Source: Paludibacteraceae bacterium (lineage in GTDB: Bacteria > Bacteroidota > Bacteroidia > Bacteroidales > Paludibacteraceae). Taken from it: a stretch of 64,000 nucleotides of DNA. Below the pieces are notes generated by a model. The model was not told the DNA's origin and made no database searches. It worked only from the letters and a program-made list of their open reading frames with translations. Both the position numbers and the translations under genes were made by a program. Shown in pieces: positions 59,629 to 64,000 of the stretch. Where the stretch lies: assembly GCA_028694915.1 (NCBI GenBank), contig JAQVJY010000003.1, positions 1 to 64,000 on the forward strand, given 5' to 3'. Within the stretch, counting starts at the first letter, position 1; every line of letters starts with the position of its first letter.

Positions 59629-60045
59629 ATCGAAAAAAGAGAATTAGTTATCAACATCATTCACACCCAAACCTAAATGCACCTTAAAACCGAGCGTTAC
59701 AGCTAGTTTTAAAAAGCCGCTTCTTTTTTTGTAAAAAGATGTTAGGGTTAAAAAATAAATACGTACATTCGTAGCTGGATTTATTATTATCTTATAGATT
59801 ACATACACACCACACATTATATGTTTAGTAAATTTTGGAAATAATATCTAATAAACACAAAAAGAACTACTCAACGCAAATCAAACTTAATTATTAAAAT
59901 AATATAACTAGTCAACCTAATTGTGCTCTCTTTATTTGAATTTTAGAACGTTGAGTTGAAGTACAAACTTTATAAGGAAAATTTGCAAACTAATTATTTG
60001 AGATTATCTTAAAACGTGTCTAATAAATATCTATCTTTGCAAGAT
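59629..60045. other. AT-rich gene-free boundary before the accessory operon
   Basis: About 415 bases, strongly AT-rich, with no supportable ORF. It marks the change from core to accessory DNA. It contains the -7-like element TATCTTTG (60032-60039) on the plus strand. No integrase, tRNA or obvious direct repeat is visible. Confidence 0.6.
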
Positions 60046-61473
60046 ATGGCTACGATTAACGAAATAATGCCTTCTAACGGAGAATACAGTTACAAAATGA
60101 TGAATTTTGAATCATCATTGGCGTCAAGTTATAGGAAAGCAAACGGCGTCTACTATACTGATTTATTATTATCAGAAAGAATGTTAGATGATTTAAATAT
60201 TAGGAATGATTCTACTATATTAGACCCTTGTTGTGGAGCAGGAAGTTTTATTTTTTCTGCAAAAAAGAAAGGAATCAATAACATATATGGAATTGATCTA
60301 GATAAAAATGCCGTAAGTTTCTGTCTAAACCACATCCCTGATATTTCTTGTATACAATTTGATTCTTTAGGTAATAATGGCAAAACAATTCTTAATAAAT
60401 TACAAATTCAAGAAAAGGTAGATTATATAATTGGTAATCCACCTTATTCGCCTATTGATAAAAGCACTACATTTACAACAAAGGATATTGTTTTTAATAA
60501 AAAAGTTGCAGAATCAGGTAATAATTTGTTTGTAGCGGCTCTAATTAGAGCCTTGGAAATGGTAAAACCAAATGGAATAATATCATATATTATTCCTAAG
60601 AATTTTCTACATATAAGTTCCTATGGCAAGTTGAGAAAAGATTTGCTGAAACAACACACTATAATTTCAATAGTTGATATTGGAGCTTATTTTAAAAATG
60701 TTCGTGGAGAACAAATTATATTAACAATTCAAAATTGTTTACCCAAAGACAATAACAATATTATTATAAAGAAACTTGTTAATACTGAATTTGTAGCTCA
60801 AACTCAAGTCCCTCAAAAATATTTTTCAAATGAAATAATACTTTTTAATAGTGATGAGGACTTTTCCATTTATAATAAATTAAACTCCACATACCAAAAA
60901 CTAACGGATATTTGTCTTGGTTATATAGGAAGAGGAAAATCCAAAAATTTAAATGCCATTACCGGAAAAGAGATTAGAAAGTTTGGTTTAAAAAATACAA
61001 CATCTAATTTAGATGGTAATCAAATATTTATCCAAAACATCTATAGCACTGAATCTGGCATAATCGCGGCTTTTGCTGGAAATTTATCCGCAGGTGAGAC
61101 TGTTACTGTATTGACAGATGGGAACAAAGAAATGTGTAAGTTTATACTTGGTATTTTACACTCAAGATTGTGTAACTTTTTTCTCTACCATTATTGCTAC
61201 AATTATTCAAAACTTACAATGCACACAGATCCTAAATACCTCAAAAAAATACCTTTACCAGACACAGAATCACCTCTTTTTAATAAAATTGTACAATGTG
61301 TTGAAAAAATTGAGATGGATGAATATATGTCAAAATCATGGTTTGATAATGTAGAAGTCCTAAACAAATTAATTTATAAAATTTACAAAATTAAAAGAAA
61401 TGAATCTCAATATATCGATAAAGAAATGAGATTCGTTCAGTCTAATAAATGGCAAAATAATGGAATATTCTAA
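60046..61473 (+). CDS. DNA adenine-N6 methyltransferase (M1)
   Basis: 475 residues from ATG at 60046; an in-frame GTG at 60016 adds 10 residues, but the element TATCTTTG lies between them. Motif X/near region KANGVYYT, motif I DPCCGAGSF (60-68), and motif IV NPPY (131-134, in VDYIIGNPPYSPID), so the order is I then IV, gamma class, as in Eco57I/TaqI-like enzymes. The C-terminal half likely recognises the target site. Methylation of adenine is inferred from NPPY. It overlaps the next gene by 14 nt. Confidence 0.9.
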   Translation: MATINEIMPSNGEYSYKMMNFESSLASSYRKANGVYYTDLLLSERMLDDLNIRNDSTILDPCCGAGSFIFSAKKKGINNIYGIDLDKNAVSFCLNHIPDISCIQFDSLGNNGKTILNKLQIQEKVDYIIGNPPYSPIDKSTTFTTKDIVFNKKVAESGNNLFVAALIRALEMVKPNGIISYIIPKNFLHISSYGKLRKDLLKQHTIISIVDIGAYFKNVRGEQIILTIQNCLPKDNNNIIIKKLVNTEFVAQTQVPQKYFSNEIILFNSDEDFSIYNKLNSTYQKLTDICLGYIGRGKSKNLNAITGKEIRKFGLKNTTSNLDGNQIFIQNIYSTESGIIAAFAGNLSAGETVTVLTDGNKEMCKFILGILHSRLCNFFLYHYCYNYSKLTMHTDPKYLKKIPLPDTESPLFNKIVQCVEKIEMDEYMSKSWFDNVEVLNKLIYKIYKIKRNESQYIDKEMRFVQSNKWQNNGIF

Positions 61474-62233
61474 AAAATGTAATGATTTATCTGGAAAAGA
61501 ATGGCTTCAAAACTCTTTTAGTATTTGGCGGAATTTAAACAAAACAAAAGAGGAAAAGGATTTTAAACATCCTGCATCATACCCAGTAGAGCTGTGCGAG
61601 AAAATAATTAGGACATTTGCTAAATCTGATTGCAAAGTATTAGACCCTTTTAATGGTATTGGATCAACTGTAGTTGCCTGTCATAATCTTAATTGTCATG
61701 CTGTAGGCATTGACTTGTCAAAAGAATTTTGTGATATATCAAAGAAAAGAATAGAAAATGATTCAAAAATACAAATCATTAATGGTGACAGCTTTGAAGA
61801 ATTAAAAAAATTACCCGAAGAGCATTTTGATTTATGCTTAACTTCACCGCCATATTGGGATATTCTCAACATGAAGAGAAGTGCAGATATGAAAGAAGCC
61901 ATAAACTATTCTCAGAGTTTAAATGATGTTGGAAATATCCCTAATTACGATGAATTTATAGATAAACTTAAAAAATTGTTTATTGATGTTCAAAGAGTAT
62001 TAAAATCAGGTGGTTATTGTGTTGTAAATGTTATGGATATAAGAAAGAAAAGTGAATTTTATCCACTGCATAGTGATTTATCTACTGCATTGAAAGAAAT
62101 CGGATTTATCTATGACGATTTAATTATTTGGGATCGACAATCAGATTATAATAATATGCGACCTCTAGGATACCCATACAAATTTAGAATTAATAAAGTG
62201 CATGAATATTTAATGATTTTCATAAAAAAATAA
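61460..62233 (+). CDS. second DNA methyltransferase (M2)
   Basis: 257 residues. An N-terminal HPASYPVELCEKII (motif X-like), motif I DPFNGIGST (62-70), and motif IV TSPPYW (128-133), then SGGYCVVNV. The TSPPYW form is commonest among N4-cytosine methyltransferases but occurs in N6-adenine ones too, so the methylated base is open. No long target-recognition domain is obvious. Two different methyltransferases in one operon suggest an asymmetric recognition site, each strand protected separately. Confidence 0.88.
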   Translation: MEYSKKCNDLSGKEWLQNSFSIWRNLNKTKEEKDFKHPASYPVELCEKIIRTFAKSDCKVLDPFNGIGSTVVACHNLNCHAVGIDLSKEFCDISKKRIENDSKIQIINGDSFEELKKLPEEHFDLCLTSPPYWDILNMKRSADMKEAINYSQSLNDVGNIPNYDEFIDKLKKLFIDVQRVLKSGGYCVVNVMDIRKKSEFYPLHSDLSTALKEIGFIYDDLIIWDRQSDYNNMRPLGYPYKFRINKVHEYLMIFIKK

Positions 62234-62239
62234 TGACTC

Positions 62240-62689
62240 ATGACTGATCAAGAATTTTACACTGTTTTAGGATATCTTACAAATCCTACAAGAGAAACAA
62301 ACATCGAAGTTGAGTTACCATCACAAAGACAAACTCGTTTTATTTCTGAGTATGCTTCATGGACAAACAATCACCCTTTGCCATTAAAAACCTCTACAGC
62401 TCCTTATTATGTTTGGCCTATTGGTACAAACAAATACGGATTAGAAGTTCGTTTATATTTTATTTCTAACAATAATATGCCACAAATTCTCGATGCAATG
62501 TTAGAGCCTCGCAAAATTCAGAACAGACCTAGTTATGAAAATTGGGAGAGAAGAATAAGCTTAAAAGACCATATTATACCATTTTTACAAAAAGGTTTTG
62601 TTTTAGGTCGAGTACAAGATAAAAATAGAATTAGAACTTTTGTCCCAGCCCAATTCTTTGCAAATTTCGAATATGGTTATAACCTTTAA
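62240..62689 (+). CDS. hypothetical protein between methyltransferase and LAGLIDADG genes
   Basis: 149 residues, no recognisable domain. It is rich in aromatic and charged residues, with a Trp-Pro motif (YYVWPIGTNKYGLEVRLYF) and no nuclease motif that I can see. No signal peptide or membrane helix. Gaps of 6 and 11 nt to its neighbours place it in the operon. It could be a small subunit of the restriction complex, but this is only inferred from context. Confidence 0.7.
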   Translation: MTDQEFYTVLGYLTNPTRETNIEVELPSQRQTRFISEYASWTNNHPLPLKTSTAPYYVWPIGTNKYGLEVRLYFISNNNMPQILDAMLEPRKIQNRPSYENWERRISLKDHIIPFLQKGFVLGRVQDKNRIRTFVPAQFFANFEYGYNL

Positions 62690-62700
62690 GCTAATAAAAT

Positions 62701-63588
62701 ATGAATACAGAAATGTCATATTTACTTGGATTAATATCTGGAAACGGTGAAATAAAAAGAGGTGCAACTGAAACTATAATCTCAATTGATATTCCACACA
62801 AAAAGTTAGTTACAGAAAACGATCAAGATGTAAAAATATATGTAAAGGCTAGTATCTCGGACATTCGAGGAATAATTGAGCCACTTATTGGCACTGGTAT
62901 TATTTATACACAACAAGATACAAATACTATTTTGTCTTTCTGTAAACCAAATACCGATTATTTGATGAGAGAGATATTAAGATATGTAGGTCGTGCCTCA
63001 TCACATGAGAACATTCGTATCAGCAAAGATATGTTTTCTTTTAGCCAAGTTGAAAAAATATATTTTCTTAGAGGCTTTGCAGATACTACTGGGTACATTA
63101 GGAGAAGTAATTATTTCTTTGAACCATATTGTCATCGAGTATATTTAGAAATTCCACATAATTGGGAACTTGTGATTGATGTATGTAATCTGTTAAAAGA
63201 TGTTGATATTCCTGTTCAGACTATTGATTGGGCTCACCCAAACATGAGAGATGGCAACTTGACTAAATATAAACAAGGTAAACCAAATTTCTGGAAGAAA
63301 GAACATCAGTTAAAAATATGGGCAAATGAATTTGAAAAAATCGGTTTCGCTGTTTTACATAAGAAAGAAGCGTTATCAATTTTTTCCGAAGAATTGATTG
63401 ACGGAATTATTGACAGAGGGAAAAATGTTGCTTCCTTCACTCACAGATACTATTGGGAAGGAAGAGAATCAAATAAAATTAAACCTATACATCCATCCGA
63501 GAACGATATGTTTATTCCAGATTCCATACGTGGTAAACATTATTCTTCATGGAAGGAAATTGCAAAAAACTTAGGATATAAGAAATGA
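62701..63588 (+). CDS. degenerate LAGLIDADG-fold protein
   Basis: 295 residues with two LAGLIDADG-like motifs: LLGLISGNG (residues 9-17) and LRGFADTTG (123-131), about 114 residues apart as in single-chain homing endonucleases. The acidic catalytic residue of the eighth position is Asn in motif 1 and Thr in motif 2, so cleavage is doubtful and a DNA-binding role is plausible. In this operon it may recognise the target of the nuclease encoded next. The last codon overlaps the nuclease start (ATGA). Confidence 0.8.
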   Translation: MNTEMSYLLGLISGNGEIKRGATETIISIDIPHKKLVTENDQDVKIYVKASISDIRGIIEPLIGTGIIYTQQDTNTILSFCKPNTDYLMREILRYVGRASSHENIRISKDMFSFSQVEKIYFLRGFADTTGYIRRSNYFFEPYCHRVYLEIPHNWELVIDVCNLLKDVDIPVQTIDWAHPNMRDGNLTKYKQGKPNFWKKEHQLKIWANEFEKIGFAVLHKKEALSIFSEELIDGIIDRGKNVASFTHRYYWEGRESNKIKPIHPSENDMFIPDSIRGKHYSSWKEIAKNLGYKK

Positions 63589-64000
63589 GAGAGTTTGAGC
63601 TATACGAACCAATGAGAATTTGGTTGCAATCATACCTTGAATCAAATTATAAGCATCAAGAAATTATTACCATTGATGCACATAGCGAGCGCTTAGACAG
63701 AGTGCTTCGAAAATTTGGAATTCGATGTGATATTGCAACGGGAGTTGACATACAAATTGACATTTTAGGTATTGTAAAAAATGAACATTCATTTAAGCTA
63801 TTTTTTATAGAAGCAAAAAAAACAAGTTTGAATCTTCGTGATTTAGGTCAATTGTGGGCTTACTGCAAATTGATTGATCCGGAAGAAGCATTTTTGCTTA
63901 CTTCTGAAGATTTAGGAAGTCTAAATAAGATCTTAAATGTCTATAAAAGAGAAGACCTACTTGATTTTGGAGATGGAAAATTCATAAAAAAAATGAAAGT
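63585..64000 (+). CDS. PD-(D/E)XK nuclease, 5' part (truncated by window end)
   Basis: The first 138 codons are in the window and the gene continues beyond it. Residues 55-79 read as D59 in an IDILGIV strand, then FFIEAKK with E76 and K78: the PD-(D/E)XK pattern D-x16-E-x-K. A GQLWAYCKLIDPEEAFLLTSED stretch follows, typical of the core helix and strand. Probably the restriction endonuclease subunit of this operon. ATG overlaps the previous stop. Confidence 0.82.
   Translation, partial: MREFELYEPMRIWLQSYLESNYKHQEIITIDAHSERLDRVLRKFGIRCDIATGVDIQIDILGIVKNEHSFKLFFIEAKKTSLNLRDLGQLWAYCKLIDPEEAFLLTSEDLGSLNKILNVYKREDLLDFGDGKFIKKMK

Follow-up and report, generated by a model that had tools for sequence, protein, structure and literature searches.

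The closest described counterparts of the system treated here are the Type IIT restriction enzymes BtsI and BsrDI, which work with two methyltransferases, one for each strand of an asymmetric site, and whose small subunit catalyzes cleavage of one strand. In BtsI, the large subunit nicks DNA alone and the small subunit is inactive alone (PMC2909958, PMC4081073), and BtsIB combines recognition with a PD-EXK motif of its own (P57, D58, E72) (PMC2909958). A major review that sorts Type II enzymes by catalysis into PD-(D/E)XK, HNH and GIY-YIG groups makes no mention of LAGLIDADG (PMC4081073). LAGLIDADG proteins without catalytic residues are nevertheless found in bacteria: WhiA (DUF199) is a domesticated example that acts as a transcription factor, and it binds DNA by a C-terminal helix-turn-helix (HTH) and not by its degenerate LAGLIDADG domain (PMC3781837). 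An inactive I-SceI has also been engineered into a fusion with PvuII (Fonfara et al., 2012, as cited in PMC3857828). Here we describe a five-gene restriction-modification (R-M) cassette at the end of a 64,000-nucleotide stretch of DNA from a Paludibacteraceae bacterium (bases 1-64000 of the 181-kb contig JAQVJY010000003.1, hereafter the window). It encodes two DNA methyltransferases (M1 and M2), a small protein (U149), a LAGLIDADG-fold protein (LAG) and a nuclease (NUC), the last of which runs over the window edge. The whole is likely to be a complete, mobile, Type II-like R-M cassette directed at a non-palindromic site, in which the catalytically dead LAGLIDADG protein would provide specificity and NUC would be the cutter.

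The assignment of LAG to the LAGLIDADG proteins rests on its modelled structure, because sequence searches gave only weak hints: single-sequence Pfam comparison matched Hom_end in 8 of 32 LAG members, weakly (best 0.0027), and a sequence search of solved structures returned chance matches only. Built on 42 relatives, the AlphaFold (AF2) model has high confidence (predicted local distance difference test, pLDDT, 90.3; predicted template modelling score, pTM, 0.90), and a Foldseek search with it retrieved LAGLIDADG proteins at E values of 3e-6 to 6e-4, headed by the bI3 LAGLIDADG maturase (3e-6) and including I-DmoI (6e-6). VIA structural alignment gave Z scores of 14.7 for PI-SceI, 14.5 for I-Tsp061I (183 residues, 3.0 Å), about 13 for I-DmoI (22% identity) and 13 for WhiA. 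LAG thus resembles PI-SceI, I-DmoI and I-Tsp061I in that a single chain forms both repeats of the LAGLIDADG fold (Z 13-15), and differs from the homing endonucleases in being without both catalytic acids and in being the fixed partner of NUC and of methyltransferases. The catalytic acids of LAGLIDADG enzymes are D20 in I-CreI, and D21 and E117 in I-DmoI. The motif register is kept in LAG (motif 1, residues 9-16, LGLISGNG; motif 2, residues 123-131, LRGFADTTG), and the motif glycines and D128 are invariant, except for an alanine that replaces G131 in nine relatives. The catalytic position of motif 1 (residue 15) is, however, asparagine in 58/60 relatives and arginine in the other two, and that of motif 2 (residue 130) is threonine in all 60. 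Loss of the canonical active site is thus fixed across the relatives and not confined to one decayed copy, and LAG, to judge from its sequence, cannot cut by the LAGLIDADG mechanism. The degenerate LAGLIDADG protein that an earlier note on this DNA had recognized from the letters is in this way confirmed by the modelled fold and by the replaced acids.

Of LAG and NUC, only NUC retains a recognised nuclease site. Its residues D59, E76-x-K78 and Q89xxxY93 show no variation among those of the 60 relatives that cover the position, A77 varying in three, and NUC is accordingly predicted to hold a PD-(D/E)XK site with a RecB-type QxxxY, its catalytic motif being in the right register; the PD-(D/E)XK nuclease of the earlier note therefore stands. 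A weak match to the YhcG PDDEXK model was seen in 9 of 29 NUC members. At curated cut-offs, U149, LAG and NUC had no match in Pfam, NCBIfam or PADLOC, and no nuclease family of these three collections matched LAG at cut-off.

The same gene order, which the earlier note had proposed to look for in other genomes, is conserved in many of them. Sixty loci including the window were recovered (49 species-genome, two plasmid, two annotated-phage, four viral-contig and two same-family loci), the 49 coming from 84,980 species genomes that were scanned with short patterns of LAG. NUC lies directly 3′ of LAG in every one of them, and the grouping of the genes is for this reason not due to chance. With NUC as an independent query against plasmids, phages, viral contigs and 300 family genomes, no locus without LAG was found. 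The identities of LAG and NUC are correlated across loci (rho 0.80), and the pair is retained while all other genes of the cassette are exchanged. The hosts belong to at least 11 phyla, among them Bacteroidota, Bacillota, Spirochaetota, Thermodesulfobacteriota, Elusimicrobiota, Synergistota, Saccharibacteria, Cloacimonadota, Melainabacteria, Mycoplasmatota and Pseudomonadota, and the cassette also occurs on plasmids and phages. Cultured strains that carry it include Phascolarctobacterium sp. ET69 and Barnesiella sp. An22. Inside any group it is rare (3/300 family genomes, 1/395 phylum genomes), which fits the expectation for mobile defence genes. We are thus nearly certain that this is a real, conserved and mobile R-M cassette. 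Its minimal version consists of three genes, a fused EcoRI-type and C5 methyltransferase, LAG and NUC, and is found in Lactiplantibacillus plantarum on a 6.5-kb plasmid (NZ_CP060181.1 and NZ_CP141333.1; loci L055/L056). This plasmid otherwise holds little beyond replication and toxin-antitoxin genes, and LAG and NUC are annotated on it as hypothetical. The L. plantarum plasmid p9 has this three-gene set. The system also travels on phages. In the Candidatus Heliusvirales gut phages PV036447.1 and PV036410.1 (L057, L058), the three-gene version is situated close to an end of the genome record, and one of these loci adjoins an excisionase gene.

The two methyltransferases that the earlier note had read from their motifs, an N6-adenine enzyme as first gene and a TSPPYW enzyme behind it, are both upheld by profile searches. 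M1 matches the Pfam families N6_Mtase (7e-18), Eco57I (1e-16) and, weakly, TaqI_C (0.01); its relatives in the PDB are M.BseCI and M.TaqI, and the NPPY motif is present in the relatives scanned. Membership of M1 in a BREX or MADS system was considered and rejected, the PglX and MAD2 matches lying far below cut-offs and no other BREX or MADS genes being adjacent. M2 matches N6_N4_Mtase (6e-34) and has TSPPYW in 41/41 relatives; from this motif and from its PDB relatives, which include the DNA cytosine-N4 methyltransferase 8s9n (1e-15) as well as adenine enzymes, it is probably an N4-methylcytosine (m4C) enzyme. Across the loci there is a METHYLTRANSFERASE exchange, in which four methyltransferase sets accompany the same LAG-NUC pair. 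M1 with M2 is found at 39 loci, the window included; an EcoRI-type adenine enzyme (PF13651) with a C5-cytosine enzyme (PF00145) at 16 loci, as two genes in nine and fused in seven; M1 with a C5 enzyme at two; and in a distant relative M2 is fused to an adenine methyltransferase of the D12 family. The sets change four times on the LAG tree, versus 18 times in shuffles. Taking as adenine-type the enzymes with NPPY, NPPF or D12, and as cytosine-type those with TSPPYW or C5 enzymes with PPCQ/ENV, one enzyme of each type (or their fusion) is paired in 58/58 complete loci, and no LAG-NUC locus without methyltransferases was seen among them. Such a pairing in every complete locus is as expected for a non-palindromic site. 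Its simplest reading is a single asymmetric target conserved together with LAG, in which adenine would be marked on one strand and cytosine on the other; the alternative is that the pairing is a coincidence of class. The relatives gave no basis to infer a recognition sequence.

Two DNA methyltransferases with intact motifs and a nuclease are encoded together here, as in Type II R-M systems, and the following course of events may be proposed. The two methyltransferases would each protect one strand of the same asymmetric site, as suggested by the pairing of their classes and by the Type IIT precedent. LAG, a putative domesticated homing endonuclease, would use its pseudo-twofold saddle to bind this non-palindromic site in unmodified foreign DNA and would, in a LAG-NUC complex, deliver NUC to it. 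NUC, to judge from its motif and its obligate pairing, would make the cut, and cleavage of both strands would probably require either a pair of NUC molecules or nicks made one after the other close to the site. Some points weigh against this reading. The main caution is that a LAGLIDADG fold alone is no proof that LAG reads DNA, because WhiA binds through its HTH. In addition, NUC has one active site, so that double-strand cleavage needs an extra assumption, the adjacency and co-inheritance of LAG and NUC are by themselves no proof of contact, and an invariant stretch of LAG rich in H, K, E and D (HPNMRD...FWKKEHQxK) could hide an unrecognised active site.

The last point leads to a two-site enzyme of the Type IIT kind, in which LAG would nick one strand through a non-canonical site and NUC the other, as the subunits of BtsI and BsrDI do. 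The layout of the cassette is strikingly BtsI-like, a large and a small subunit with two methyltransferases, and the restriction subunits are of similar size (about 330 and 160 residues in BtsI/BsrDI, estimated from molarities in PMC2909958, vs 295 and 158 here); a set of LAG residues is also invariant or nearly so (D128, E150, D176, H179, R183, D184, K200, E201, H202 and K205). However, non-acidic residues have become fixed at the positions of both canonical LAGLIDADG acids in all 60 relatives, and the same conserved set could equally well make contacts with DNA if the target is shared. Measured against Type IIT, the cassette has the two methyltransferases, NUC has one catalytic site, and LAG has neither the canonical acids nor another nuclease match; comparison of published motifs further sets BtsIB, which uses its PD-EXK site, apart from LAG, with its LAGLIDADG fold and no recognised site. 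We therefore regard such a two-site enzyme as unlikely.

Somewhat less likely still is that LAG is a regulator, be it a WhiA-like transcription factor or a controller protein, and NUC a restriction enzyme that works by itself and brings its own specificity. A regulator with a degenerate LAGLIDADG domain is known in WhiA, which figures among the structural matches of LAG, the conserved C-terminal SWxxIAxxLGY segment of LAG could be HTH-like, and 158 residues are not impossibly few for a restriction enzyme. One would, however, expect some loci to have dropped or replaced a regulator, whereas LAG is never lost, always directly precedes NUC and remains with it through the exchange of all other genes. 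Moreover, the Pfam matches that 32 LAG members gave at E values of up to 1 did not include the WhiA model, and WhiA, with its separate HTH, is not an R-M component. As LAGLIDADG proteins are classically endonucleases of mobile elements and LAG loci are widely spread by horizontal transfer, LAG, with or without NUC, might also be a selfish homing or mobility element inside an R-M operon. This is very improbable: LAG was never met inside an intron or intein, nor as a free-standing homing gene, being always located between the methyltransferases (or U149) and NUC; its catalytic acids are lost; LAG and NUC always accompany a methyltransferase pair; and it is the whole cassette, not LAG alone, that is exchanged.

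In the earlier note, recognition and cleavage were suggested to be possibly divided among three small proteins. This has to be narrowed, as only LAG and NUC are inseparable: the U149 family is present in 37 of the 60 LAG loci and missing from 23. Where present, it may stand before LAG or after NUC, occur in two copies, or be fused, either to M2 (L014) or to a NOV_C domain (L026, L050, L061). The family is also found beside at least two unrelated restriction systems, one relative being flanked on one side by an Eco57I-type methyltransferase and on the other by a T5orf172/ResIII protein (L068, 6835-7275) and another behind a fused C5/adenine methyltransferase and a 399-aa protein (L069, 6508-6885). 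Since its position and copy number vary and the family occurs with other restriction systems, U149 is a travelling R-M accessory, a new small-protein family and not a core part of the cassette; the candidate role of an essential third subunit was rejected on the same counts. Only K65, R71 and R105 are invariant in the family. The model of U149 is confident (pLDDT 93), and VIA alignment of residues 1-149 placed the intein endonuclease 2cw7 first, at a Z score of 6.3 that is below 8 and not decisive, the next sixteen rows being LAGLIDADG proteins as well (Z 2.5-4.2). Foldseek against the PDB and viral models gave nothing significant for U149, and neither did a profile comparison with LAG (probability 0.5%), in which the lone aligned stretch was the LAGLIDADG helix in register. 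That U149 might be a single degenerate LAGLIDADG-like repeat is thus only a weak lead from modelling. Taking the proteins together, we lean towards a restriction enzyme that is naturally split, a dead meganuclease being the part that would guide a small, separate nuclease, with U149, possibly a single LAGLIDADG-like repeat, as an accessory common to other restriction systems.

The five open reading frames, all on the plus strand, and their tight spacing (overlaps at two junctions, 14 and 4 nt; short gaps at the other two, 6 and 11 nt) are as the earlier note had described them (Table 1). The frame of M1 is open upstream of its start as far as a GTG at 60016. Beyond the window, where the same note had left room for the last gene to belong to a different system, NUC is complete and belongs to this one. 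Its stop codon is followed by a 126-bp gap and by an isochorismatase-family gene (PF00857, window-equivalent 64188-64682). This gene was rejected as a part of the system, being present in no other LAG locus; it lies inside the exchanged segment without a link to LAG elsewhere and is probably a passenger.

Table 1. Coordinates of the cassette genes and of the exchanged segment, in window positions.
Feature	Position	Strand	Description
M1	60046..61473	+	Gamma-like DNA methyltransferase of the adenine (N6) type with GNPPY; C-terminal specificity domain weakly TaqI-like
M2	61460..62233	+	Overlaps M1 by 14 nt; N6/N4-type DNA methyltransferase, TSPPYW, probably N4-cytosine
U149	62240..62689	+	Gap of 6 nt after M2; accessory protein, new family
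LAG	62701..63588	+	Gap of 11 nt after U149; predicted two-repeat LAGLIDADG fold, catalytic acids replaced; 295 residues
NUC	63585..64000 in window, stop at 64061 of contig	+	Overlaps LAG by 4 nt; predicted PD-(D/E)XK nuclease, 158 aa
Exchanged segment	59774..64000 in window, extending to ~64696	.	Low GC and same-genus comparison

The cassette also stands out from its surroundings by its guanine-plus-cytosine (GC) content (28-32% vs 41-44%). Both flanks are also present in a same-genus genome, to which homology ends at about 59774 and restarts at about 64696. At the same spot (L113, 4145-6428) this genome encodes an HTH_3 protein, an N6/N4 methyltransferase and a product of 376 aa, in a replacement segment that is also AT-rich. 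The 376-aa protein is without a Pfam match and is likely to be a restriction enzyme. Because the same flanks enclose a different R-M cassette in the same-genus genome, the spot is an R-M exchange site, or hotspot, at which the segment in the window is one allele among R-M cassettes. Around the cassette, nothing convincing was found in the way of flanking repeats that would mark an integration site. A dinB-like gene lies next to the exchange site.

The earlier note knew of no LAGLIDADG subunit in any restriction system described so far, and likewise none was found here in the open-access literature, REBASE lying outside the search. More specifically, a restriction system made of a dead LAGLIDADG protein and a nuclease was met neither in the open literature nor in Pfam, NCBIfam, PADLOC or PHROGs, a prior listing in REBASE being possible. 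Papers that name LAGLIDADG beside restriction (BsaXI, GmrSD, WhiA) do not describe a LAGLIDADG restriction subunit, and a LAGLIDADG assignment once claimed for GmrSD has been refuted (PMC4619093). The nearest parallel in design is the I-SceI-PvuII fusion, which, as far as its citation in PMC3857828 describes it, also uses a dead LAGLIDADG protein as DNA-binding module for a PD-(D/E)XK enzyme. It is an artificial single chain, whereas the cassette is its apparent natural counterpart in two genes, with matching methyltransferases.

If the reading of LAG as the specificity subunit and NUC as the cutter is true, a LAGLIDADG recognition subunit would be a new DNA-reading scaffold for restriction enzymes. 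Because reading and cutting would lie on separate small proteins, and a three-gene version exists on a 6.5-kb plasmid, the LAG-NUC pair would be a test bed for the uncoupling of the two activities that engineers have pursued via fusions. The interchange of methyltransferases around LAG-NUC predicts one asymmetric site common to the members of the family, with a methylatable adenine and cytosine on opposite strands. For LAGLIDADG proteins as a whole, the cassette would represent a route for the domestication of homing endonucleases into immunity.

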